From assembly GCF_001883705.2 (NCBI RefSeq), contig NZ_MDEQ02000013.1:186001-250000 (forward strand): a stretch of 64,000 nt of DNA. Direction: 5' to 3'. Below the pieces are notes generated by a model. That model did no database searches, was not told the origin of the DNA, and saw nothing but the letters and a program-made list of their open reading frames with translations. Shown piece by piece: positions 17,748 through 62,406 of this stretch; the stretch's first letter is position 1; every line of letters starts with the position of its first letter. Position numbers and translations under genes: made by a program. This DNA is from Burkholderia catarinensis. Lineage in GTDB: Bacteria; Pseudomonadota; Gammaproteobacteria; Burkholderiales; Burkholderiaceae.

Positions 17748-18254
17748 AGTCTTTTCGCTTTGCCGCCGCCCGGTTTGCCGAGCGGCCGTAGTGTGGAGAT
17801 CGAATGTCTATCTCAAAACAGACACCCTCTTGCGAGTGCGTCAGCACGGCCGTCGCGAGGCACACGCGGCGGTCGCGTTCGCGGCGACCGGTGAGATACG
17901 CGTCGTTCCGGTGTCCGCAAAGCCGATATTCTAAGCGAGAGCGGAAAATCGCACAGCTAAGTTATCCCCTGCATTCTGTGGAAAATCGCTGGATAACTAC
18001 AATTTTTCGTTGTGCCTGCAATGCCGTGTGCCCGCAGAACGGGGCAGGCAGGCATTTTCCTGTTCGGATCGGCCACCGGGCCGACGGCAATGATCCACCG
18101 GGTTATCCCGCCCGCAGACCGTTGACTTTGCAGCGGAATATCGGGTTATCCACAGATTTTCAGGACGACTGGCAACGATTTCGGCCCGAAACGGCGCCGA
18201 CCGCCGTTCAGTGAATCGCAACGCGGTCGAGCCTGTAATCCGCAAAACATTTTT
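17748..18254. other. Intergenic region with DnaA-box-like sequences
   Basis: 507 bases with no supported gene, between the MarR gene and the end of the ybdK-like gene. Base composition is less GC-rich than the flanks. It includes a perfect TTATCCACA at 18146-18154, related sequences TTATCCCCT (17962-17970) and TTATCCCGC near 18112, and an inverted pair AGTTATCC ... GGATAACT at about 17960-17998. The promoter of the MarR operon should lie near 17748-17850. Confidence 0.5.
18146..18154 (+). promoter_or_regulatory. DnaA-box match TTATCCACA
   Basis: Exact match to the high-affinity DnaA-box consensus in an intergenic region. It is one of several such sites between 17.9 and 21.3 kb; see the palindrome at 21199-21230. 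Confidence 0.5.
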
Positions 18255-20599
<2,345 letters not shown>

Positions 20600-21021
20600 C
20601 GTGGTGACTTCTCCTTTGGAAGCAACCGCCAGCGACGCGGGGTCAAGCGTCAGAAAATGGATGCGCGCCGGCTGGGTGTCGCCCCGAATGTGATTGTTGT
20701 GGTCGACGACGGCGGGACATGGGATCCGCCTTCTCCGCCACTCGGCGGAAAGTCGCTCAGGTTGCCGATCTGGATTGTCGGCCTGGTGTGTGAACGGACA
20801 GCGCAGCTTCGAAGATTCAGATTCGAAATCTTGCCGACCGTTCCATTGAAGCATGTCCGGCGCCTGGCCAGACGAACGCGAAGGACACCGATTGTGCCAC
20901 AGCTTTTTCGGTCTGGAACCCATTGGATCGACTCGCGGCGCTGTGCGGCACTGCAGGCCTTTGGTTTCAAAGGTTTACCTGTATATATACATAGTAGAAG
21001 TTAACAAAGGACGCACAGTTC

Positions 21022-21030
21022 TGTGGATAA
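21022..21030 (-). promoter_or_regulatory. DnaA-box match (TTATCCACA on the minus strand)
   Basis: Exact consensus DnaA box within 30 bases of an AT-rich stretch (TATATATACATA). It is about 170 bases from the DnaA-box palindrome at 21199-21230. Confidence 0.5.
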
Positions 21031-21198
21031 CTTCGGTTTACGCTGACGGATCAAGGGGTTGAAGAATCCATAACCTGTTGCACAGGCTGTTCGCGCACAG
21101 AAGTTTGCGTTGAGCAACTTTGGGGCCGTCTCACAGCTGTGTCGAGTTACCCAGTTTACGTCCACTGTGATTACACACGAAGCGCGCGCGGATTTCGC

Positions 21199-21230
21199 AA
21201 GGTTATCCACAGTATCGAGTGGATAACCTT
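21199..21230. repeat. Perfect 12-bp inverted repeat containing facing DnaA-box-like sequences
   Basis: The arms AAGGTTATCCAC (21199-21210) and GTGGATAACCTT (21219-21230) are exact reverse complements around an eight-base spacer. The left arm plus one spacer base makes TTATCCACA; the right arm, read on the minus strand, makes TTATCCACT. It lies about 45 bases past the mnmC stop. No T-run follows on either strand, so it is not an ordinary terminator. Confidence 0.8.
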
Positions 21231-21272
21231 CCACAGGAAAATCGGGAAACTGTGCGCGATTCGCGTGACCGG

Positions 21273-23219
21273 TCAGCCGGCCTGGCCAACGCGGCGCGCG
21301 CGCAATGCGCGGATCAGGAAGCGTGCGGGGTCGACGGCTTCGGCGAGTTCGCGCTCGAGCGGCCACGGTTCCCCTTCGAGTTGCGATGCGATCAGTTCGG
21401 CGCCGAGCGCGGCCCACACGAGGCCGCGCGAGCCAAAGCCGAATGCGCCGTAGAGGCCGGGCGTGCGCGGCAGGTCGCGTGCCTTCGCGCCGCTCAGCGC
21501 GCGTGCGTTCGCGACGGCCTGCGTTTCGTCCGCGAGCGGGCCGATCAGCGGCAGGCGGTCGCCGACGACCCAGCGGAACGCCACGCGGCCGCGCAGTGTG
21601 TCGAGGTCCGGCAGGTCGCCGATCAGACCGGGCAGCAGGCGCCGCACGCGGTCGAGGTTTTCGACGTGGCCGGTTGCGCGCATCGCGGGATCGACGTCGT
21701 CGGGTTCGAACGTCGCGCCGATCAGCAGCGAGCCGTCGTCGAGCGGCACCGCGTAACCATCGCCGATCGCCGGGCACGGCAGCGGCGCCGCACTGCCGGG
21801 CGGCAGCAGCGTGAGCTGGCCGCGCACCGGTTGCAGCACGACGTGCCGGAGGCCCGCGAGACGCACGGCGTCACCCGCGTTCGCGAGCACGACGACGGGG
21901 GCTTCGGCGAGCATGCCGCCCGCGTCGTCAAGCGCATGCCATGTGTCGCCTTGCCGTTCGAGCCGGGCGACGCCGGTGGACGCAAGCAAGCGCACGTGCT
22001 CGCCGGCCGCCGCGCATTGCGCCGCGCAAAGCCCGGCCGGCCAGACGGCGCCGCCCTGCGGAAACAGCAGGCCACCCTGCGCGACCGGCAGGTTCAGATG
22101 GGCACGCGCGGCCTCCGCATCGAGCAGCGACGCATAGTCGGACGGCGCACCGAACGTATCGAAGGCGTCGCGCATCCGCGCGAAGTCGTCGGCCGATTCG
22201 GCGAGATGGATCATCCCGTGCGTGCTGCGCGCGAACGCATGACCCGCGCGTTCGAGTGCGCGCCAGCGTGCGATCGCGTGCAGGAAGCCGCTGCGCGTGA
22301 GCCGGCTCGCGACGTTGTCGTCGCGCGTCATCAGCGGATGGAATACGCCGGCCGGATTGCCCGACGCTTCGCTCGCGATCCGGTCGTGTCGTTCGATCAG
22401 CGTGACGTCCCAGCCGCGCGCGGCCAGGCGCTCGACGACCGCACAGCCAGCCAGGCCCGCGCCGATCACGATTGCGCGGCGCGTTGCAACGGGCAGTGCG
22501 CGCGGCGGCTCGTGCCGGCGCGTGCGCCAGCGCGGCGCATAGTCGCCGACGAGCAGACCGTCGATCTCGCGATACGTGAAACCTGCTTCGCCGAGTGCGT
22601 GTTTCACGACGTCGGAATCGGCATGCGTCGCAAACGTTGCGCGTTCGCCGGCGATTTTCGCGAGTGCGCGGACCACGTGGGTCTCGTGAAGATCCGTGTC
22701 GTTCGATGACGTGAAGCGATCGAGATAGAACGCATCGGCGCGCGCGACGAGCTTCGCCAACATGTCGAGCGTGTTGCCGAACGCGAGCGTGAGCACCACG
22801 CGCCCTTCGTCGAATTCGAGCCGGTGCAGGCCCGGCACGAGCATCGGCCATGCATCGGCAAGTGCGTCGACGTTCGCCGATATGGTTGTGTTGGCAACGA
22901 TGTGAGAAGCCGCGCGGCGCAGGTCGTCGCGCGAGAACGGGTGCGGTTCGACCGCGACGAAATGCAGCCGCTCGCAACGCGCGGGATCGTCGCGCCACGC
23001 GGCCCGGGTCGCGAGGAAGCTGCCGCCCGCGCCGAATCCCGTCGCGACGATCGTGAACGTGCGGCGGCCCTGCCAGCGCGTCGGCAGCCCGTTGCCCGCG
23101 ACGAACGCGTGATGCGCATGCGCGCGTGACGCGCCGCGATGGAGCTCGCCGAACTCGGGCGAGACGAGCGTGCCGTCGTCGCGAAGCGCGAGCGTGGCGG
23201 GAACAAGTCGGTCTGGCAT
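21273..23219 (-). CDS. mnmC: MnmC bifunctional tRNA modification enzyme with degenerate methyltransferase half
   Basis: 648-residue two-domain enzyme acting on the wobble uridine-34 of certain tRNAs. The C-terminal FAD oxidoreductase half (from about residue 235, AIVIGAGLAGCAVVERLAAR; also EASGNPAGVFHPLM and YGAFGFGSRGLVWAALG) removes the carboxymethyl group and looks intact. The N-terminal methyltransferase half is eroded: the usual FGTGLNFL-type SAM motif reads FGAGGSFL, the LDGF.P....DMW-type segment reads LDRFTSSNDTDLH, and the conserved GF.xKREM-type motif before the domain junction is missing (IDGLLVGDY). The frame is unbroken. The start at 23219 (MPDRLVPATL) follows family practice. 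Confidence 0.88.
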   Translation of the reverse strand: MPDRLVPATLALRDDGTLVSPEFGELHRGASRAHAHHAFVAGNGLPTRWQGRRTFTIVATGFGAGGSFLATRAAWRDDPARCERLHFVAVEPHPFSRDDLRRAASHIVANTTISANVDALADAWPMLVPGLHRLEFDEGRVVLTLAFGNTLDMLAKLVARADAFYLDRFTSSNDTDLHETHVVRALAKIAGERATFATHADSDVVKHALGEAGFTYREIDGLLVGDYAPRWRTRRHEPPRALPVATRRAIVIGAGLAGCAVVERLAARGWDVTLIERHDRIASEASGNPAGVFHPLMTRDDNVASRLTRSGFLHAIARWRALERAGHAFARSTHGMIHLAESADDFARMRDAFDTFGAPSDYASLLDAEAARAHLNLPVAQGGLLFPQGGAVWPAGLCAAQCAAAGEHVRLLASTGVARLERQGDTWHALDDAGGMLAEAPVVVLANAGDAVRLAGLRHVVLQPVRGQLTLLPPGSAAPLPCPAIGDGYAVPLDDGSLLIGATFEPDDVDPAMRATGHVENLDRVRRLLPGLIGDLPDLDTLRGRVAFRWVVGDRLPLIGPLADETQAVANARALSGAKARDLPRTPGLYGAFGFGSRGLVWAALGAELIASQLEGEPWPLERELAEAVDPARFLIRALRARRVGQAG

Positions 23220-53267: not shown

Positions 53268-54701
53268 ATGACACTCCCGACCGCGCCGGCGACCCCGGCG
53301 CGGTTCGGCATTTCGGAGAAGGAGCGCAACAGGATGGCGCACAGCCTGCGCGGACGGCTGCTGTGGTGGCTGCTGCTGCCGCTCGCGGTGTTCGTGCTGA
53401 TCGCGGGCGCGATGTCGTACGACACCGCGCGGACCACGGCCGGGCTCGTGCAGGACAGCGCGCTCGTCGCGTCCGCGCGCACGATCGGCGAGGACGTCGA
53501 ATGGCGCAACGGGCTGCCGGTCGCCGACGTGCCGCCGGCCGCGCTGGAGATCTTCGAATCGCCGTCGCGCGATTCGGTGTTCTACAAGGTGATCGACGGC
53601 CACGACCGCCTGCTCGCCGGCACGCCCGCGCTCGACCTGCCCGCGCGGCACGGCGTCGAGCCCGCGCTGTACGACACGTCGCTCGACGGCGTGCCGCTGC
53701 GCGCGGTGGTCTACGATCGCCAGCTTTACGACGCGGGGCAGGTCGAGACGGTCACGGTGGTCGTCGCGAAGACGACGCGCTCGCACGGCGCGATGGTCGC
53801 CACGATCTGGCGGCCGCAGCTCGTGCGCCTGTCGCTGATGCTGATGCTCGCGGTGGTGCTCGTCTACCTCGGCCTGACGCTGGAGCTGCGCCCGCTGATG
53901 AAGCTGAAGGACGACGTCGCCGACCGCGGGCCGATGGAGCTGGAGCCGATCCGCCCCGAACGGCTGCAGCATGAGTTGCGGCCGATCGTCGATGCGATCA
54001 ACCAGTGCATCGCGCGGCTCAGCATGCACACGGCCACGCAGCGCCGCTTCATCGCGGATGCCGCGCACCAGTTGCGCACGCCGATCGCGGTGCTCGACAC
54101 GCAGATCCAGTACGCGCAGCGGCGCGAGCACGACGATCCGGAGCTCGCGTCGGTGCTCGACAGCATGCAGCGCAGCAGCCGCAAGATGGCCGACGTGACC
54201 GACAAGCTGCTGCTGCTCGCGCATGCGGAGGCCACGCCGTCGACGCTCCTGACCCATCGCGTCGATCTCGCGGCCGTGGTGTCGAGCGTGCTGGAGGAGA
54301 CGATCGTGCTCGCGCAGCGGCGCGATATCGACCTCGGCGCCGATCTCGGCGAGCGGCTCGACGTCGCGGGCAGCGACAGCCTGCTGACCGCGCTGGTGAT
54401 GAACCTCGTCGACAACGCGGTGCGCTACACGCAGCCGGGCGGCTGCGTGACGGTGGCCGCACGGCGCGACGGCAGCGAGGTCGTGCTCGACGTGGTCGAC
54501 AACGGCCCGGGCATTCCGGCCGAAGCGCGGCCACACGTGTTCAAGCGGTTCTACCGCGTGTCGGCCGATACCGAGGGCTCGGGCTTGGGCCTCGCGATCG
54601 TCCGCGAGATCGCGCAGGCGCACGGCGGCAGCGCGTCGCTTGCGCCGGGGCCCGGCAATCGCGGTATCGTTGTGACCGTGCGGCTGCCCGCCTATGCTTG
54701 A
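53268..54701 (+). CDS. Sensor histidine kinase (TctE-like)
   Basis: 477-residue sensor kinase: first membrane helix WWLLLPLAVFVLIAGAMSYD, a periplasmic 2CSK_N-type domain, second helix RLSLMLMLAVVLVYLGLTLE, then the H-box FIADAAHQLRTPIAVLDTQI with His267 (numbered from 53268), and the N/G boxes LVDNAVRYTQPGG, VDNGPGIP, GSGLGLAIVREIAQ. An ATG at 53334 with AAGGAG upstream is a strong alternative start. Members of this group sense organic anions and control their transporters, which fits the ABC importer before it and the porin after it. Confidence 0.9.
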   Translation: MTLPTAPATPARFGISEKERNRMAHSLRGRLLWWLLLPLAVFVLIAGAMSYDTARTTAGLVQDSALVASARTIGEDVEWRNGLPVADVPPAALEIFESPSRDSVFYKVIDGHDRLLAGTPALDLPARHGVEPALYDTSLDGVPLRAVVYDRQLYDAGQVETVTVVVAKTTRSHGAMVATIWRPQLVRLSLMLMLAVVLVYLGLTLELRPLMKLKDDVADRGPMELEPIRPERLQHELRPIVDAINQCIARLSMHTATQRRFIADAAHQLRTPIAVLDTQIQYAQRREHDDPELASVLDSMQRSSRKMADVTDKLLLLAHAEATPSTLLTHRVDLAAVVSSVLEETIVLAQRRDIDLGADLGERLDVAGSDSLLTALVMNLVDNAVRYTQPGGCVTVAARRDGSEVVLDVVDNGPGIPAEARPHVFKRFYRVSADTEGSGLGLAIVREIAQAHGGSASLAPGPGNRGIVVTVRLPAYA

Positions 54702-54713
54702 AGAGATGTCGCC

Positions 54714-55391
54714 ATGAAACTCCTGCTGGTCGAAGACAACGCTGAACTCGCGCACTGGATCGTGAATCTGCTGCGCGGCGAGGATTTCGCGGTCGACTCC
54801 GTCGGCGACGGCGAGCGCGCCGACACGGTGCTGAAGACCGAGCGCTACGACGCGGTGCTGCTCGACATGCGCCTGCCCGGCATCAGCGGCAAGGAGGTGC
54901 TCGCGCGGCTGCGGCGCCGCAACGACAACGTGCCGGTGCTGATGCTGACCGCGCACGGCTCGGTCGACGACAAGGTCGACTGCTTCGGCGCGGGCGCCGA
55001 CGATTACGTCGTGAAGCCATTCGAATCGCGCGAGCTGGTGGCGCGGATCCGTGCGCTGATCCGCCGGCAGGCCGGCGTCGGCACGACGCAGCTGGTGTGC
55101 GGCGATCTCGTCTATGCGTTCGGCACGCGCGAATTCCGCTGCGGCGAAGCGGTGCTCGCGCTGCGCCGCCGCGAGCATGCGATCCTCGAAACGCTGATGC
55201 TGCAGCAGAACAAGACGGTGTCGAAGGCGCGGCTGATGGACAGCGTGTTCGCGCTCGACGACGAACCGAGCGCCGACGCGATCGACATCTACATCCACCG
55301 GCTGCGCAAGCATCTCGCGACCAGCACGGCCGAGATCATCACGCTGCGCGGGCTCGGTTACATCCTGCGCATGAAGAGCACGCAGGACTGA
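54714..55391 (+). CDS. OmpR-family response regulator (TctD-like)
   Basis: 225-residue response regulator: acidic pocket VEDNAELA, phospho-acceptor Asp51 in AVLLDMRLPGISG, conserved Thr in VLMLTAHGS and Lys in DDYVVKPFE; then an OmpR-type winged helix ending YIHRLRKKHLATSTAEIITL-like sequence and GLGYIL. It follows the kinase by 12 bases and should be its partner; the porin and ABC operon are the natural targets. Confidence 0.92.
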   Translation: MKLLLVEDNAELAHWIVNLLRGEDFAVDSVGDGERADTVLKTERYDAVLLDMRLPGISGKEVLARLRRRNDNVPVLMLTAHGSVDDKVDCFGAGADDYVVKPFESRELVARIRALIRRQAGVGTTQLVCGDLVYAFGTREFRCGEAVLALRRREHAILETLMLQQNKTVSKARLMDSVFALDDEPSADAIDIYIHRLRKHLATSTAEIITLRGLGYILRMKSTQD

Positions 55392-55670
55392 CGCTCGCGC
55401 TCCCGCATCCCGGAATACCGATTCGCAGCACGAAACGTTTCAGAAGCCTGCCGGCCGCCCGGCGGGCTCGCATCCGCGCCTGCACGATTCTCGATTATTG
55501 CGCGTTCGGTGTTTTCACCGATCCGATTCTTGCGTCCGGGAAAGCGTCGTGAAGGATTGCACCTTCTACGATGCTATGCGTCGGCCCCCTCGCTGTGGCC
55601 GGCAAGAGTCGGCATACATGACGTACTGCCAACGACCAGATTTCAATGCGGCAGCTCGGAGGAGACGATC

Positions 55671-56801
55671 TTGAAACGAAAAACCCTTGCCCTTTCCATC
55701 GCGGCGGCTGGCCTGTGCGCCGGCACCCAGGCGCACGCGCAGTCGAGCGTGCAGCTCTACGGCCTGATGGACCTGAGCTTTCCGACCTACCGGACCCACG
55801 CCGACGCGAACGGCAAACACGTGATCGGGATGGGCAACGCAGGCGAGCCGTGGTTCAGCGGCAGCCGCTGGGGCCTGAAAGGCGCCGAAGACATCGGCGG
55901 CGGCACGAAGATCATCTTCCGCCTCGAAAGCGAATTCGTGGTCGCGAACGGCCAGATGGAAGACGAAGGCCAGATCTTCGACCGCGACGCGTGGGTCGGC
56001 GTCGAGGACGAACGTTTCGGCAAGCTGACAGCCGGCTTCCAGAACACGATCGCGCGCGACGCGGCGACGATCTACGGCGACGCATACGGCTCCGCGAAGC
56101 TGACGACCGAGGAAGGCGGCTGGACCAACTCGAACAACTTCAAGCAGATGATCTTCTACGCAGCCGGCCCGACCGGTACGCGCTACAACAACGGCATCGC
56201 GTGGAAGAAGCTGTTCAGCAACGGCATCTTCGCGAGCGCCGGCTACCAGTTCAGCAACTCGACCTCATTCGCGACCGGCTCCGCGTACCAGGCCGCGCTC
56301 GGTTACAACGGCGGGCCGTTCAACGTGTCGGGCTTCTACAACCACGTGAACCACAACGGCTTCAGGAACCAGACGTTCTCGGTGGGCGGCAACTACACGT
56401 TCAGCATCGTGCGCCTGAACGCCGGCTACTTCCGCTACAACGGCGACCAGGGCTCGCTCGGCCAGCGTCATGACGATTCGTGGACCGTGTCGGTGAAAGT
56501 CGCGCCGAAGGGCGCGCTCGACTACGAGCTCGGCTACCAGCAGATGCGCATCAAGAACGCCGCGAACAACGCCGACGGCTTCACGCCGAACGCGAACCTC
56601 GGCGCGTTCAGCCTGACCAACGGCGTCGCCAACGGCTTCAAGGAGACGCTGTACGGTTCGGTGTTCTATCACCTGAGCAAGCGCACCGAGCTGTACCTGG
56701 CCGGCGACTACATGAAGCTGCACGGCGGCTACACGGTGTCGTCGACGTTCGGCGCGAAGAACCAGCTCGAACTGACGACGGGCATCCGCACGCGTTTCTG
56801 A
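55671..56801 (+). CDS. Gram-negative porin
   Basis: 376-residue general porin of the Burkholderiales type: signal peptide KTLALSIAAAGLCAGTQAHA, then SSVQLYGLMDLSFPTY, many alternating beta-strands with WGLKGAEDIGGGTKIIFRLE and RDAWVGVEDERFGKLTAGFQ, and the terminal ELTTGIRTRF ending in Phe for outer-membrane insertion. The start is a TTG at 55671, chosen because GGAGGAG stands at the right distance and the signal peptide begins there. Coupling with the preceding two-component system suggests regulated uptake. Confidence 0.9.
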   Translation: MKRKTLALSIAAAGLCAGTQAHAQSSVQLYGLMDLSFPTYRTHADANGKHVIGMGNAGEPWFSGSRWGLKGAEDIGGGTKIIFRLESEFVVANGQMEDEGQIFDRDAWVGVEDERFGKLTAGFQNTIARDAATIYGDAYGSAKLTTEEGGWTNSNNFKQMIFYAAGPTGTRYNNGIAWKKLFSNGIFASAGYQFSNSTSFATGSAYQAALGYNGGPFNVSGFYNHVNHNGFRNQTFSVGGNYTFSIVRLNAGYFRYNGDQGSLGQRHDDSWTVSVKVAPKGALDYELGYQQMRIKNAANNADGFTPNANLGAFSLTNGVANGFKETLYGSVFYHLSKRTELYLAGDYMKLHGGYTVSSTFGAKNQLELTTGIRTRF

Positions 56802-57150
56802 CCTCGGGTACAGCCATCCGGGCGGGGCCCATCGGGCCCCGCCATTCCCTCTGTCCGGGACTCTCCATGCGGGCACGCCGGCGCTTTGCGCCGACCGTGC
56901 CCTTTTTTTCGTCCTTTCCGGGGCGCCCCGCGATGCCCGGAACCCGGCCGCCGGCCGGCCGTGCGAGAACCGGCCCGAAGCCGCTTGCGGCCCGCCGGGC
57001 GGGCGATCGCGGCCGATGCACGCACGCTCGGCTCGCATCGGCGCTTGACCTGCGCCGACCGACTCGCTAGCGTTTCGGGTTTGCCCGGGCGGCCATTGCC
57101 GCCGGTGCCGTGAGCGCGCCCGACGTCCTGGCGCGCGCGGCCGGGCTCCG
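56802..57150. other. Intergenic region before the type III R-M genes
   Basis: 349 bases between the porin and mod. It opens with a perfect 10-bp hairpin (56821-56843, arms GGCGGGGCCC / GGGCCCCGCC) about 20 bases after the porin stop, which may terminate or stabilise that transcript; it lacks a proper T-run. The rest is GC-rich and shows no gene or clear promoter. Confidence 0.5.
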
Positions 57151-59169
57151 ATGGAAAAGACGATGCAGAAACTCGATGCGGCCAGCCCGCAGGCGATGTC
57201 GACGGATTTCACCGCCGACAACGTCGCGCGCCTGAAGGCGCTGTTCCCCGAACTCGTGACCGAAGGCCCCGGCGGCGCGTCGGTCGACGTCGACGTGCTG
57301 AAGGCGCTGATCGGCGAGCGCACGGTCGGCGACGCCGACGAGCGCTACGGCTTCCACTGGCACGGCAAGCGCAGCGCGCGCCAGGCCGCGCTCACGCCGT
57401 CGACGGGCACGCTGCGGCCCTGCCCCGACGACAGCGTCGCGTGGGACGACACGCGCCATCTCGTGATCGAGGGCGACAACCTCGACGTGATGAAGCTGCT
57501 GCACAAGAGCTACGCGGGCAAGGTGAAGCTCGTCTATATCGACCCGCCGTACAACACCGGCAGCGATTTCGTCTATCCGGACGACTTCAGCGACAGCATC
57601 CGCCACTACCTGGCGATGACCGGGCAGACCCAGGGCGGCGTGAAGCGCAGCACCAACACCGAGGCGAACGGCCGGTTCCACACCGACTGGCTGAACATGA
57701 TGTATCCGCGCCTGAAGCTCGCGCACGCGCTGCTGTCCGACGAAGGGCTGATCGCCGTGCACATCGACGAGCACGAAGTGCATGCGCTGGTGCTGATGCT
57801 GCGCGAGATCTTCGGCGAGGAGAACGAGCTCGGCGTGGCCGTGTGGGACAAGCGCAACCCGAAGGGCGACGCGCGCGGCGTCGCGTACCAGCACGAATCG
57901 CTGGTGCTGTTCGCGCGCAACGCCGAGACGCTGCTCGAACAGGCGCCGCTCAAGCGCCCGAAGCGCAATGCGCAGCGCATGCTCGACGCCGCGCGCGACG
58001 CCGTGTACCGTAGCGGCAACCCGAAGGACGCGCAGAAAGCGTACCGCGCGTGGATGAAGGCGCAGACCAACCTGTCGGGCGGCGAGGTGATGTACGACCG
58101 GCTGTCGGAAGAAGGCCGCGTGTACCGCCTCGTGTCGATGGCCTGGCCGAACAAGAAGAAGGCGCCGGAAGAGTATTTCACGCCGCTGATCCACCCGGTC
58201 ACCGGCAAGCCGTGCGCGATGCCGGCGCGCGGCTGGCGCAACCCGCCCGCGACGATGCAGGCGCTGATCGAGCGCGGCCAGATCGAATTCGGCGCGGATG
58301 AAAGCACGCAGCCGCAGCGGATCTACTACCTCGACGAGAACATGTACGAGAACGTGCCGTCGGTGCTGCCGTTCGCCGGCTCCGACGACGCGCTGCTGAA
58401 GACGCTCGGGATCCCGTTCGACCAGCCGAAGCCGGTCGACTTCGCGGCGGCCGTGATCGGCTGGTGCACGCGCGGCGACGACATCGTGCTCGACTGCTTC
58501 GCGGGCTCCGGCTCGACCGGCCACGCGGTGATGCAGGTGAACGCGACCGACGGCGGCGCGCGCCGCTACGTGCTCGTGCAACTGCCCGAAGCGCTCGACC
58601 GCCGCGACAAGACGCAGCAGGGCGCGGCCGATTTCTGCACGAAGCTGAAAAAGCCCGCGACCCTCGCCGAAATCACCAAGGAACGCCTGCGCCGCGCCGC
58701 GCAGCAGGTCGCGCGCGACTATCCGGAAAGCTATGGCGACCTCGGCTTCCGCGTGTACCGGCTCGACACGACCAACGTGATCGAGTGGGACCCGCGCCGC
58801 GACGATTTCGACCACGCCCTCTTCGCCTCCGTCGAGCACGTGAAGACCGGCCGCACCGAGGACGACCTGCTCGCCGAGCTGACGCTGAAGCTCGGCCTCG
58901 ACCTGTGCACGCCGGTCGAGCATCACACGGTGGCGGGCAAGACCGTGCACCTGATCGGGCGCTCGATCGTCGCGTGCTTCGACGCGCGCATCTCGCGCGA
59001 CGACGCGGGCCCGCTCGCCGACGGCATCGTCGCGCTGCTCGACGCGAGCGGCGCGACGCGCGACGTCACGTGCCTGTTCCGCGACAGCGGCTTCGTCGAC
59101 GACGTCGCGAAGCTCAATCTCGCCGCGCTGCTCGAACAGCACGGCGTGAAGCGCGTGCGGAGCCTGTGA
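57151..59169 (+). CDS. mod: Type III DNA methyltransferase (Mod)
   Basis: 672-residue adenine methyltransferase of the beta class, with the order seen in type III Mod proteins: DPPYNTG catalytic motif at residue 131, then the central target-recognition region, then the SAM-binding FAGSGSTGHAV at about residue 450. It marks one strand of a short asymmetric site. From memory, a related type III enzyme of B. cenocepacia and B. pseudomallei modifies CACAG; the target here is therefore a guess. Its stop overlaps the Res start by one base (TGATG). Confidence 0.92.
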   Translation: MEKTMQKLDAASPQAMSTDFTADNVARLKALFPELVTEGPGGASVDVDVLKALIGERTVGDADERYGFHWHGKRSARQAALTPSTGTLRPCPDDSVAWDDTRHLVIEGDNLDVMKLLHKSYAGKVKLVYIDPPYNTGSDFVYPDDFSDSIRHYLAMTGQTQGGVKRSTNTEANGRFHTDWLNMMYPRLKLAHALLSDEGLIAVHIDEHEVHALVLMLREIFGEENELGVAVWDKRNPKGDARGVAYQHESLVLFARNAETLLEQAPLKRPKRNAQRMLDAARDAVYRSGNPKDAQKAYRAWMKAQTNLSGGEVMYDRLSEEGRVYRLVSMAWPNKKKAPEEYFTPLIHPVTGKPCAMPARGWRNPPATMQALIERGQIEFGADESTQPQRIYYLDENMYENVPSVLPFAGSDDALLKTLGIPFDQPKPVDFAAAVIGWCTRGDDIVLDCFAGSGSTGHAVMQVNATDGGARRYVLVQLPEALDRRDKTQQGAADFCTKLKKPATLAEITKERLRRAAQQVARDYPESYGDLGFRVYRLDTTNVIEWDPRRDDFDHALFASVEHVKTGRTEDDLLAELTLKLGLDLCTPVEHHTVAGKTVHLIGRSIVACFDARISRDDAGPLADGIVALLDASGATRDVTCLFRDSGFVDDVAKLNLAALLEQHGVKRVRSL

Positions 59170-62100
59170 TGCGGCTGCATTTCGAAGCGGATCTCGACTA
59201 CCAGCGCGACGCGATCGACGCCGTCTGCGACCTGTTTCGCGGCCAGGAATCGTATCGCGGCGACTTCAGCGTGCTCGCGAACGCCGCGCCCGGCACCACG
59301 GCCGCAGCTCAAGGCTCGCTCGGCTTCGCGGTGTCGGAACAGGGCGTCGGCAATCGGCTGTCGCTGACCGACGACGCGCTCGCGCGCAATCTTGCCGACG
59401 TGCAGCTGCGCGGCGGGCTGCCGCCGTCCGGCCTGCCCGGCTCGCGCGACTTCACCGTCGAGATGGAAACCGGCACCGGCAAGACCTACGTGTACCTGCG
59501 CACGATCTTCGAGCTGAACCGCCGTTACGGCTTCACGAAGTTCGTGATCGTCGTGCCGTCGATCGCGATCAAGGAAGGCGTGCACAAGACGCTCGCGATC
59601 ACCGAGGACCATTTCCGCGCGCTTTATGCGGGCGTGCCGTACGACTACTTCCTGTACGACTCCGCGAAGCTCGGCCAGGTGCGCCACTTCGCGGCGAGCG
59701 CGGCGATCCAGGTGATGGTGATGACGGTTGCCGCGATCAACAAGAAGGAAATCAACAACCTCTACAAGGACAGCGAGAAGACCGGCGGCGAAAAGCCGAT
59801 CGACCTGATCCGCGCGACGCGGCCGATCGTGATCGTCGACGAGCCGCAGAGCGTCGACGGCGGGCTCGAAGGCCGCGGCCGTGAAGCGCTCGCCGCGATG
59901 GCGCCGCTCTGCACGCTGCGCTATTCGGCCACGCACGCCGACCGTCACCACATGGTGTACCGGCTCGATGCGGTCGACGCGTACGAGCGCAAGCTCGTCA
60001 AGCAGATCGAGATCGCGTCGGCGATCGTCGAGGATGCGCACAACAAGCCGTACGTGCGGCTCGTCGGCGTGTCGAACCGGCGCGGCGCGATCAGCGCGCG
60101 CGTCGAGCTCGACGTCGCGACGGCGGCCGGCGTGAAGCGCCAGATCGTGTCGGCCACCGACGGCGACGATCTCGAACGCCTGACCAGGCGTGCGCTGTAC
60201 GCGGGGCTGCGGGTCGGCGAGGTCCACGCGGTGAAGGGTGCCGAATACGTCGAGCTGCGCCATCCGGAGGGCGAGGCGTTCCTGTCGCTCGGCGAGGCAT
60301 TCGGCGACATCGACACGCTCGCCGTGCAGCGCGAGATGATCCGCCGCACGATCCGTGAGCACCTCGACAAGGAGCTGCGCCTCGCCGAACGCGGCGTGAA
60401 GGTGCTGTCGCTGTTCTTCGTCGATTCGGTCGAGCGCTACCGCCGGTACGACGAGAACGGGATGCCCGTGAAGGGCGACTACGCGCTGATCTTCGAAGAG
60501 GAATATGCACGTGCGGCGCGCGTGCCGGCCTACCGCGCGCTGTTCGACGGCGTCGACGTGGCGCTGGAAGTCGGGCGCGCGCACAACGGCTACTTCTCGA
60601 TCGACCGCAAGGGCGGCTGGACCGACACGAGCGAAAGCAGCGCCGCGGCCCGCGAGAACGCGGAGCGCGCATACGGCCTCATCATGCGCGAGAAGGAAGC
60701 GCTGCTGTCGTTCGACACGCCGCTGAAGTTCATCTTCTCGCACTCGGCGCTGAAGGAAGGCTGGGACAACCCGAACGTGTTCCAGATCTGCACGCTGCGC
60801 GACATCCAGACCGAACGCGAGCGTCGCCAGACGCTCGGCCGCGGGCTGCGCCTCGCCGTCGACCAGGACGGCGAACGCGTGCGCGACGCGGGCGTGAACA
60901 CGCTCACCGTGATCGCGACCGAGCGCTACGAGTCGTTCGCGGAAAACCTGCAGAAGGAAATCGAGGCCGATACGGGCATCCGTTTCGGGATCGTCGAGGA
61001 ACACCAGTTCGCGGCGCTGCCCGTGCAGGAAGGCGACGGGCCCGCGCATGCGCTCGGCACCGAGCTGTCGCGCGTGCTGTGGACCCATCTGCATGAGCAG
61101 GGCTACGTCGACGCACAGGGCAAGGTGCTCGACCGGCTGAAGGATGCGCTGCGCCAGAGCGCGCTCGTGCTGCCGGATGCGTTCGAGATGCTGCGCGCGT
61201 CGATCGTCGCGACGCTGCGCAAGCTGTCCGGCCGCTTCGCGGTGCGCAACGCGGACGAGCGTCGCGCGATCGCATTGCGGCGCGATGCGTCGGGCAAGGC
61301 CGTCGTGTTCGGCGAGGATTTCCGCGCGCTGTGGGACCGTATCCGACATCGCACCGTGTACCGCGTCGAATTCGACAACGCGAAGCTCGTGCGCGACTGC
61401 GCGGCCGCGTTGCACGACGCGCCGGATATCGCGCGCGCACGGCTGCAGTGGCGCAAGGCCGAGATCGACATCGGCAAGGCCGGCATCGAGGCGATCGAGG
61501 TGGCCGGCGCCGGCACGGTGCTGATCGACGAAGGCGAGTTGCCGCTGCCCGACCTGCTCACCGAGCTGCAGGACCGCACGCAGCTCACGCGCCGTTCGCT
61601 CGCGACGATCCTGGCCGACAGCGGCCGGCTCGACGATTTCCGCGTGAACCCGCAGCAGTTCATCGCGGTCGCGGCCGACGCGATCAACCGCTGCAAGCGG
61701 CTCGCGCTCGTCGCGGGCATCGCGTACCGCAAGCTCGGCGAGCGCCACGTGCATACGCTCGAATCGTTCGAGAGCGAGGCGCTGACCGGCTATCTGCGCA
61801 ACCTGCGGCCCGATGCACGGAAGTCGATCCACGAAGCGGTCGTGTGCGAGACGGACGCGGAGCGCGCGTTCGCCGATGCGCTCGAAGCGCACGACGGCGT
61901 GAAGCTGTACGCGAAGCTGCCCGCGTGGTTCCGCGTGCCGACGCCGCTCGGCAGCTATCACCCGGACTGGGCCGTGCTCGCGGAACAGGACGGCGGCGAG
62001 CGGCTGTACTTCGTCGTCGATACGCCGAATGCGGACGGCAACGTGCCGAGCGAGCACGAGCGCGCGAAGCTCGCGTGCGGCGAAGCGCATTTCCGTGCGC

Positions 62101-62195
62101 TGGTGGACGGCGACGGTGCGGCGCGCTTCGTGCGCGTCAGGCAGGCGGACGCGTTGTTCGAACCCGCGGCGCCGCTGGCGGGCGCCGGGCGCTGA
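59169..62195 (+). CDS. res: Type III restriction enzyme Res subunit with altered nuclease motif
   Basis: 1008-residue helicase-nuclease subunit. The SF2 motor is complete by eye: motif I METGTGKTYV (Lys105), motif II DEPQ at Asp224, motif III SAT, and the later QTLGRGLRLAVDQ (motif VI). The C-terminal PD-(D/E)xK nuclease normally reads PD ... (E)TK; here Asp933 of HPDWAVL is kept, but the second half is VVDTPN (Asp951-Thr-Pro953), with proline in place of the catalytic lysine. Cleavage is therefore probably lost while ATP-driven movement may remain. A terminator follows. Confidence 0.9.
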   Translation: MRLHFEADLDYQRDAIDAVCDLFRGQESYRGDFSVLANAAPGTTAAAQGSLGFAVSEQGVGNRLSLTDDALARNLADVQLRGGLPPSGLPGSRDFTVEMETGTGKTYVYLRTIFELNRRYGFTKFVIVVPSIAIKEGVHKTLAITEDHFRALYAGVPYDYFLYDSAKLGQVRHFAASAAIQVMVMTVAAINKKEINNLYKDSEKTGGEKPIDLIRATRPIVIVDEPQSVDGGLEGRGREALAAMAPLCTLRYSATHADRHHMVYRLDAVDAYERKLVKQIEIASAIVEDAHNKPYVRLVGVSNRRGAISARVELDVATAAGVKRQIVSATDGDDLERLTRRALYAGLRVGEVHAVKGAEYVELRHPEGEAFLSLGEAFGDIDTLAVQREMIRRTIREHLDKELRLAERGVKVLSLFFVDSVERYRRYDENGMPVKGDYALIFEEEYARAARVPAYRALFDGVDVALEVGRAHNGYFSIDRKGGWTDTSESSAAARENAERAYGLIMREKEALLSFDTPLKFIFSHSALKEGWDNPNVFQICTLRDIQTERERRQTLGRGLRLAVDQDGERVRDAGVNTLTVIATERYESFAENLQKEIEADTGIRFGIVEEHQFAALPVQEGDGPAHALGTELSRVLWTHLHEQGYVDAQGKVLDRLKDALRQSALVLPDAFEMLRASIVATLRKLSGRFAVRNADERRAIALRRDASGKAVVFGEDFRALWDRIRHRTVYRVEFDNAKLVRDCAAALHDAPDIARARLQWRKAEIDIGKAGIEAIEVAGAGTVLIDEGELPLPDLLTELQDRTQLTRRSLATILADSGRLDDFRVNPQQFIAVAADAINRCKRLALVAGIAYRKLGERHVHTLESFESEALTGYLRNLRPDARKSIHEAVVCETDAERAFADALEAHDGVKLYAKLPAWFRVPTPLGSYHPDWAVLAEQDGGERLYFVVDTPNADGNVPSEHERAKLACGEAHFRALVDGDGAARFVRVRQADALFEPAAPLAGAGR

Positions 62196-62200
62196 AACGA

Positions 62201-62225
62201 AGGGCGGCGAGAGCCGCCCTTTTTT
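62201..62225 (+). terminator. Rho-independent terminator after res
   Basis: Stem AGGGCGGC / GCCGCCCT with a GAGA loop (62201-62220) and a T-run directly after, six bases past the res stop. Efficient by appearance. Confidence 0.9.
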
Positions 62226-62406
62226 CATCGGCCTTGATCGATCGTGCCGGGACCCTCGCGACGGCCGCTCCACGCGTCGGTTTCCCGTCTATCGTCCGCA
62301 TGAAAGCGATTCGTATTCCCGCGCGTTCGCTGCGCGGTTACCGCTGGTTGCAAATCGGGTCGGCACGATGTTTTCGCGCGACGGCGGGCGTTGCGTTGCC
62401 GCGATA

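Follow-up and report, generated by a model that had tools for sequence, protein, structure and literature searches.

A Type III methylation system of Burkholderia that has probably given up cleavage: Res without its catalytic lysine, and CACAG crowding at the chromosome origin

The mod-res gene pair of Burkholderia catarinensis lies in a 64,000-nucleotide stretch of contig NZ_MDEQ02000013.1 (positions 186,001-250,000, forward strand), which is called the window below and on which all coordinates are counted. The pair is probably a domesticated, cleavage-dead Type III system that is kept for methylation of CACAG, with the Res subunit serving as a motor or clamp. The nuclease motif of Res reads PD(x)17-D-T-P (PD at codons 932-933, D951-T952-P953), with a proline in the position of the lysine, and the lysine is absent from 58 of the 65 Burkholderia orthologs (52 DTP, 4 EMD, 1 ETR and 1 ETQ). 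The system, once a defence, would now be of use to the cell through the marks that it places on the cell's own DNA. The features of the locus are as follows.

57151..59169, + strand: mod, a Type III N6-methyladenine (m6A) methyltransferase of 672 amino acids, by inference the ortholog of the published CACAG methylase BCAL3494
57799..58440, + strand: target-recognition region of Mod (codons 217-430), conserved genus-wide, divergent in outside homologs
59169..62195, + strand: res, the Type III Res subunit, 1008 amino acids and full length (Pfam, EcoP15I homology, PADLOC)
59469..59486, + strand: helicase motif I, TGTGKT (residues 101-106, K105), invariant in 58 of 58 lysine-less rows
59838..59849, + strand: helicase motif II, DEPQ (residues 224-227), invariant in 58 of 58 lysine-less rows
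61821..62105, + strand: RE_endonuc (PD-(D/E)xK-type) domain, codons 885-979 (Pfam; AlphaFold model of codons 846-1000)
61962..61967, + strand: PD of the nuclease motif (P932-D933), intact by alignment
62019..62027, + strand: DTP (951-953) where (D/E)xK is expected, P953 at the catalytic lysine (alignment, phmmer)
62067..62069, + strand: K967, an ancestral lysine (K in 66 of 67 outside homologs) of the following helix as modelled, and the sole candidate substitute

The ATG of res overlaps the mod stop, and its 1008 codons contain no internal stop. Mod carries DPPY at 131 and FAGSG at 450 and matches Pfam N6_N4_Mtase, while Res matches ResIII, DEAD and RE_endonuc, the last still at residues 885-979 (E 4.2e-25, a value for the whole protein). 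Res is related in sequence to EcoP15I Res (PDB 4ZCF; E 4.8e-56), and PADLOC classes both genes as Type III defence proteins, with a REase_III match to Res at 1692.7 bits. The preliminary description of this DNA had called the helicase motifs (Lys105, DEPQ at 224, SAT) and the 1008-codon frame intact and mod normal, all of which holds; SAT occupies residues 253-255. Adjoining mod and res genes, a Mod with DPPY and FxGxG and a Res with superfamily 2 (SF2) ATPase motifs are thus in place as in a Type III system, and the alpha-beta-beta-alpha core of the PD-(D/E)xK fold is predicted by the AlphaFold model of codons 846-1000. The PD(x)17(D/E)xK motif itself fails at D-T-P (951-953), and the locus is filed as what appears to be a Type III descendant, not an active restriction system.

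The spacing published for Type III nucleases, PD(x)17(D/E)xK (PMC3311624), is exactly that of the window Res, bar the lysine. phmmer pairs ETKN of EcoP15I Res (4zcf_C) with DTPN of the window protein, although this second stretch is weak alone (9.2 bits); a D replaces the usual E of ETK as well. The residue before PD is H, where 65 of 67 outside homologs have N; this position, N931, has drifted in every Burkholderia group, N being retained in one lysine-keeping row (L053), and the loop that follows the motif has diverged. The earlier claim of a DTP motif with Pro953 in place of the catalytic lysine, followed by divergent residues, is therefore confirmed, both opposite EcoP15I and across the genus: DTP stands in 52 of 65 species, as opposed to a lysine in 67 of 67 outsiders.

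The genus survey comprised 65 Burkholderia species genomes with one orthologous Res each, and every one of these proteins is full length with no internal stops. Their motifs are DTP in 52 species (among others B. cenocepacia, B. metallica, B. anthina, B. latens, B. stagnalis, B. paludis and B. pseudomultivorans), EMD in 4 (including Burkholderia sp. Ac-20379), ETK in 3, ESK and DTK in 2 each, and ETR and ETQ in 1 each. A sequencing or strain artefact was rejected on the presence of DTP in 52 species, which makes the motif more than chance or sequencing error. The 67 outside homologs (the best 80 of 549 loci from GTDB genomes, minus 12 Burkholderia and minus L108, which is split over two frames) show ETK 66 times and ENK once. 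Close homologs outside the genus, at 66-69% identity, occur in only three of 398 family genomes (G288, G294, G318). Across the class, RE_endonuc matched in 31 of 274 genomes, the window's own included; 30 loci were read by eye, and once the window's own copy (DTP) and two loci without a complete motif were set aside, all 27 readable motifs had the lysine. Two Burkholderia species also carry a distant second Type III pair (L066, L067), whose Res is 36% identical and has a normal ETKG. Since the outsiders, the class sample and this second Res all keep the lysine, its loss appears peculiar to this orthologous group and not to the family or genus at large. No report of the missing lysine in this Res was found in the literature searched, with one likely methylome paper lying outside that search.

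It is unlikely, in our judgement, that the nuclease still cuts, using K967, K916 or a water held by acidic residues. E898, D933, D951 and K967 are conserved throughout the DTP rows and K916 in 51 of 52. Two Type II enzymes, BamHI and BglII, cut with E or Q where the lysine would stand; by that precedent, inactivity is less certain for the D, R and Q forms than for the proline form. The movement of another lysine into the catalytic place, which would have told against the earlier reading, was rejected: relative to outside homologs the nuclease domain of the lysine-less rows holds no new lysine, and the lysines common to most DTP rows (855, 885, 912, 916, 967) coincide with positions that the outsiders, too, fill with lysine or arginine. 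K916 and K967 thus look like ancestral residues for which a catalytic role is conceivable. In nearly all outsiders K967 occurs together with the normal lysine, and it is therefore not a moved lysine. Against continued cutting there is also a proline without a useful side chain, the existence of three different replacements, the diverged loop and the lost N931.

Trees of Res were built on columns before the nuclease domain. In the tree of 132 rows the 65 Burkholderia form one clade with full support in the Shimodaira-Hasegawa-like approximate likelihood ratio test (SH-aLRT), within which DTP, EMD and ETR/ETQ sit on separate branches beside lysine-bearing ones. A careful tree of 31 rows gave three changes between lysine and its absence; a single ancient loss was rejected there, the constraint of all lysine-less rows into one clade failing the approximately unbiased test (p-AU 1.2e-97). 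The fork of ETR/ETQ, EMD and five lysine rows is not settled by the tree, hence two or three losses. Burkholderia makes up 15% of the total branch length, and the chance that all three events would fall there is 0.0035 if they were spread evenly. The DTP loss is old, having preceded the divergence of the 52 species that share it. Replacement of the locus by horizontal transfer was rejected as well, gene order and distance from the origin being common to lysine states. A sensor kinase, a response regulator and a porin (window 53268-56801) lie upstream of mod in most loci read, and the order kinase-regulator-porin-mod-res is common to DTP and some lysine-keeping lineages; the regions around the EMD and ETR/ETQ loci have no match to window genes within 12 kb.

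The ratio of nonsynonymous to synonymous substitution rates (dN/dS, w) was computed by segment for the 52 DTP rows: 0.079 for the motor, 0.127 for the spacer, 0.139 for the nuclease domain and 0.314 for the tail. The motor and nuclease values both lie well under 1, and purifying selection still acts on the nuclease fold. The ratio of nuclease to motor w is 1.96 (1.09-3.40) for EMD and 1.46 (0.22-8.07) for ETR/ETQ; four outside groups give 0.60-1.31, every interval spanning 1, and two further groups gave no value (saturated). We regard it as decidedly improbable that Res is a passenger in early decay, with mod alone selected and res to vanish in time. Loss of a catalytic residue is a usual first step of such decay, the tail evolves fast, and a B. 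cenocepacia mutant was complemented by mod alone (PMC7364216). A res copy has about 85 stop-prone sites, yet the frame is broken in none of the 58 lysine-less genomes; the slow motor, with motifs I and II invariant throughout, and a loss that predates the split of the DTP species likewise speak against decay. At its 3' end Res is nearly identical in some pairs of species that diverge elsewhere (L043/L050, L045/L049), which suggests recombination between species in this part of the gene.

Specificity was compared over codons 217-430 of Mod, boundaries set in this analysis, in 50 of the 67 outside loci (open reading frame above 500 amino acids plus a match), 22 of the 52 DTP loci and all 13 other Burkholderia; the loci left out are shorter and hold mod only in part. 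Measured against the window Mod, the 13 other Burkholderia have recognition-region identities of 0.76-0.83 (catalytic core mean 0.75), versus 0.14-0.28 in the 50 outside Mods (core 0.62). Among pairs with a core identity of 0.7-0.8, which are not independent of each other, the recognition region is shared (at least 0.6) in 237 of 237 Burkholderia pairs and in 2% of 532 outside pairs. The contrast points to a fixed specificity in Burkholderia and to swapping outside. According to published work, BCAL3494 of B. cenocepacia methylates CACAG by single-molecule real-time (SMRT) sequencing, its neighbour BCAL3493 being called a restriction enzyme by the authors (PMC7364216); in B. ambifaria SMRT found 6,265 of 6,327 CACAG sites methylated (PMC11925244), and CACAG is methylated in B. 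pseudomallei too (PMC12714287). Given the frozen recognition region and the methylation in the latter two species, the target of the window Mod is presumably CACAG.

The same region bears on the idea that Res defends without cutting, the holoenzyme acting on unmethylated incoming DNA as a roadblock or as a recruiter of another nuclease. The intact motor and the PADLOC class of both genes would allow this, but in the loci read no conserved nuclease gene adjoins res, the downstream frames being small, secreted-looking or of no assigned function, and a defence locus would not be expected to have a recognition region frozen in every species; we consider such a role very unlikely. Phase variation was rejected, as neither mod nor res has a tract for it; repeats in 56700-62300 amount to four rows of at most 4 copies (period 7-12, scores 31-36). 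Global avoidance of CACAG was rejected on maximal-order Markov ratios of observed to expected counts (0.87-0.93 in two DTP genomes, 0.99 in a lysine-keeping genome, 1.00-1.04 outside). In the window itself the 56 CACAG fall short of the 95.85 expected from dinucleotide shuffles, with a maximal-order Markov ratio of about 0.93; a deficit under shuffling without a comparable Markov deficit means that the shortage lies in shorter words.

CACAG crowds around what is likely the origin of chromosome 1, which the window also contains.

17952-21254: probable chromosome-1 origin, with the GC-skew minimum (18816), DnaA boxes and the densest CACAG cluster
18146..18155, + strand: DnaA box TTATCCACAG beside the GC-skew minimum (motif scan)
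20851..21350, both strands: origin-like cluster of 12 CACAG with an inverted pair of DnaA boxes TTATCCACAG (counts)
21021..21030, - strand: DnaA box TTATCCACAG (motif scan)
21203..21212, + strand: DnaA box TTATCCACAG (motif scan)

The cumulative GC skew was followed over 260 kb of the contig. The DnaA boxes lie at 18.1-21.2 kb and the cluster about 36-38 kb from mod-res; it holds 12 of the 56 CACAG of the window and is the densest in the 400 kb of this genome that were read. As with Dam- or CcrM-like methylases, the target sites are concentrated at the origin. Elsewhere in this genome, outside the window, two more clusters reach 8 CACAG per 500 bp (L259-L260, C5:179967-180441; L263, C5:255206-255507); an mnmG/gidA-like gene (identified by its sequence) lies downstream of one of them, and the other has DnaA-box-like words. 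The 29 Burkholderia origins counted, all sharing the inverted box pair of the window, carry 8-14 CACAG per 500 bp (DTP 9-12, lysine-keeping 8-13, EMD 10-14, ETR/ETQ 10 and 10). These 29 come from 32 loci, of which three were dropped for having only a second box pair, 178 bp wide (counts 8, 5 and 3); two genomes (G038, G040) had no match to the pattern. Of 38 related origins from other genera (16 tool-chosen, 20 picked from the tool's list and 2 from genomes with a Res homolog), 37 have 1-5 CACAG and one, in an AT-rich genome, has 9; the two from genomes with a Res homolog have 1 and 2. Single CACAG sites turn over between lineages while their number is retained, which speaks for selection on number. 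By subtraction of positions, the distance between res and the origin boxes is 27.8-51.6 kb in the 27 of 31 genomes that have both on one contig, the two being on different contigs in the other four. For B. cenocepacia, the presence of CACAG at origins and in DnaA boxes has already been published (PMC7364216); the contrast with related genera and the turnover of sites are new here, within the literature searched.

A scenario that would join these observations starts with the entry of a Type III pair into the ancestor of Burkholderia, where it was then domesticated. Mod would go on methylating one fixed sequence, CACAG by its published ortholog, and cleavage would have been lost in most of the genus, in this lineage through the change of lysine to proline. 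Res may stay as an ATP-driven partner of Mod, its motor and nuclease-shaped domain binding and sliding on DNA; that domain would then hold the DNA as a clamp and not cut it, and Res would perhaps adjust the manner and timing with which Mod arrives at or departs from its sites. A main target would be the replication origin, with its accumulation of CACAG sites interspersed with DnaA boxes. In Type III systems only one strand receives the methyl group, and after replication one daughter therefore lacks it at a given site. With cutting gone, such bare sites could be harmless for a while, as a replication timer would need, which is speculation. In EcoP15I, ATP hydrolysis starts sliding, DNA downstream, at the position of the nuclease lobe, is required and the predicted lobe resembles a clamp (PMC11142916), and the nuclease domain is disordered in the structure (PMC4490356). 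A lobe retained for clamping would explain why the lysine-less nuclease has been neither lost nor free to drift. More doubtful, and offered tentatively, is a genus-wide origin mark: Mod would methylate CACAG within and around the DnaA boxes, the sites having gathered at the origin once the system had become fixed, Res would be the ATP-driven clamp that times Mod at newly replicated origins, and cleavage would have been a liability, lost more than once. A published hint on initiation is the larger nucleoid fraction of the B. cenocepacia mutant, 49.7% versus 33.8% (PMC7364216).

It is important to point out what weighs against a cleavage-dead system kept for methylation and active at the origin. 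The catalytic lysine is retained in seven Burkholderia species, and crowding at the origin is equal in lysine-keepers (8, 8, 9 and 13 sites in the four read), meaning that it does not track the loss of the nuclease. The origins come from related sequences, so the 29 counts are not 29 independent cases. The model of the nuclease domain is of middling confidence (mean predicted local distance difference test score, pLDDT, 69.9). E898, D933, D951, T952, P953 and K967 are among the residues unchanged in 52 of 52 DTP rows, and such invariance of the remaining active-site residues could mean residual or changed activity. The nuclease/motor w ratio of the DTP rows is 1.76 with an interval of 0.99-2.81, and those of the lysine-keeping Burkholderia groups are 2.08 (1.21-3.62) and 0.84 (0.40-1.83). 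We read the nuclease domain as somewhat relaxed over much of the genus, even before the lysine was lost, yet far from free. Lysine-keeping Burkholderia (L053-L065) also drift at residues fixed outside the genus (Q864, E871 and N931 in most), as if cleavage were less important in them too. Finally, mod alone complemented a B. cenocepacia deletion of seven genes (BCAL3488-3494) in the phenotypes tested (PMC7364216), for which Res is therefore not needed. The preliminary description had proposed that methylation or a motor function is kept without cleavage, and the selection on both and the repeated loss of the lysine support this, while the absence of cleavage itself we infer from sequence only. 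Its further suggestion of a regulator or translocase is not borne out, mod alone having sufficed for the phenotypes tested in B. cenocepacia; a motor or clamp function of Res and a benefit at the origin are likewise deductions.

Databases and papers label this Res a restriction enzyme (PADLOC, PMC7364216), and it probably restricts nothing. Within a single genus the enzyme exists in a presumably cleavage-dead and a lysine-keeping form, a natural set of orthologs with which the long-asked role of the Type III motor apart from cleavage becomes testable. It also ties a former defence system in a concrete way to the replication origin, in a multi-replicon genus.

Among known systems, EcoP15I (Mod2Res1, PDB 4ZCF) shares the Mod-Res pair, the SF2 motor, the C-terminal RE_endonuc-type domain and, judging by the published ortholog of the window Mod, asymmetric adenine methylation. 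The Burkholderia system differs in having DTP for ETK, in being a genus core gene that is not plasmid or phage borne, and in its fixed recognition region. In the phasevarions of Haemophilus, Neisseria and Helicobacter (modA/modH, with inactive res), restriction has also been lost and methylation kept and tied to gene regulation (PMC3311624, PMC3874151); unlike them, mod and res in the window lack a simple-repeat tract, res is full length and the recognition region is invariable. Dam with SeqA, and CcrM, belong to different families from a Type III Mod with its Res partner (the CcrM model is far under its cut-off, at 29.5 of 830 bits), and the Burkholderia Mod, unlike theirs, would mark one strand of an asymmetric site. 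What these systems have in common with it is a core gene whose sites are crowded at the origin and in DnaA boxes.
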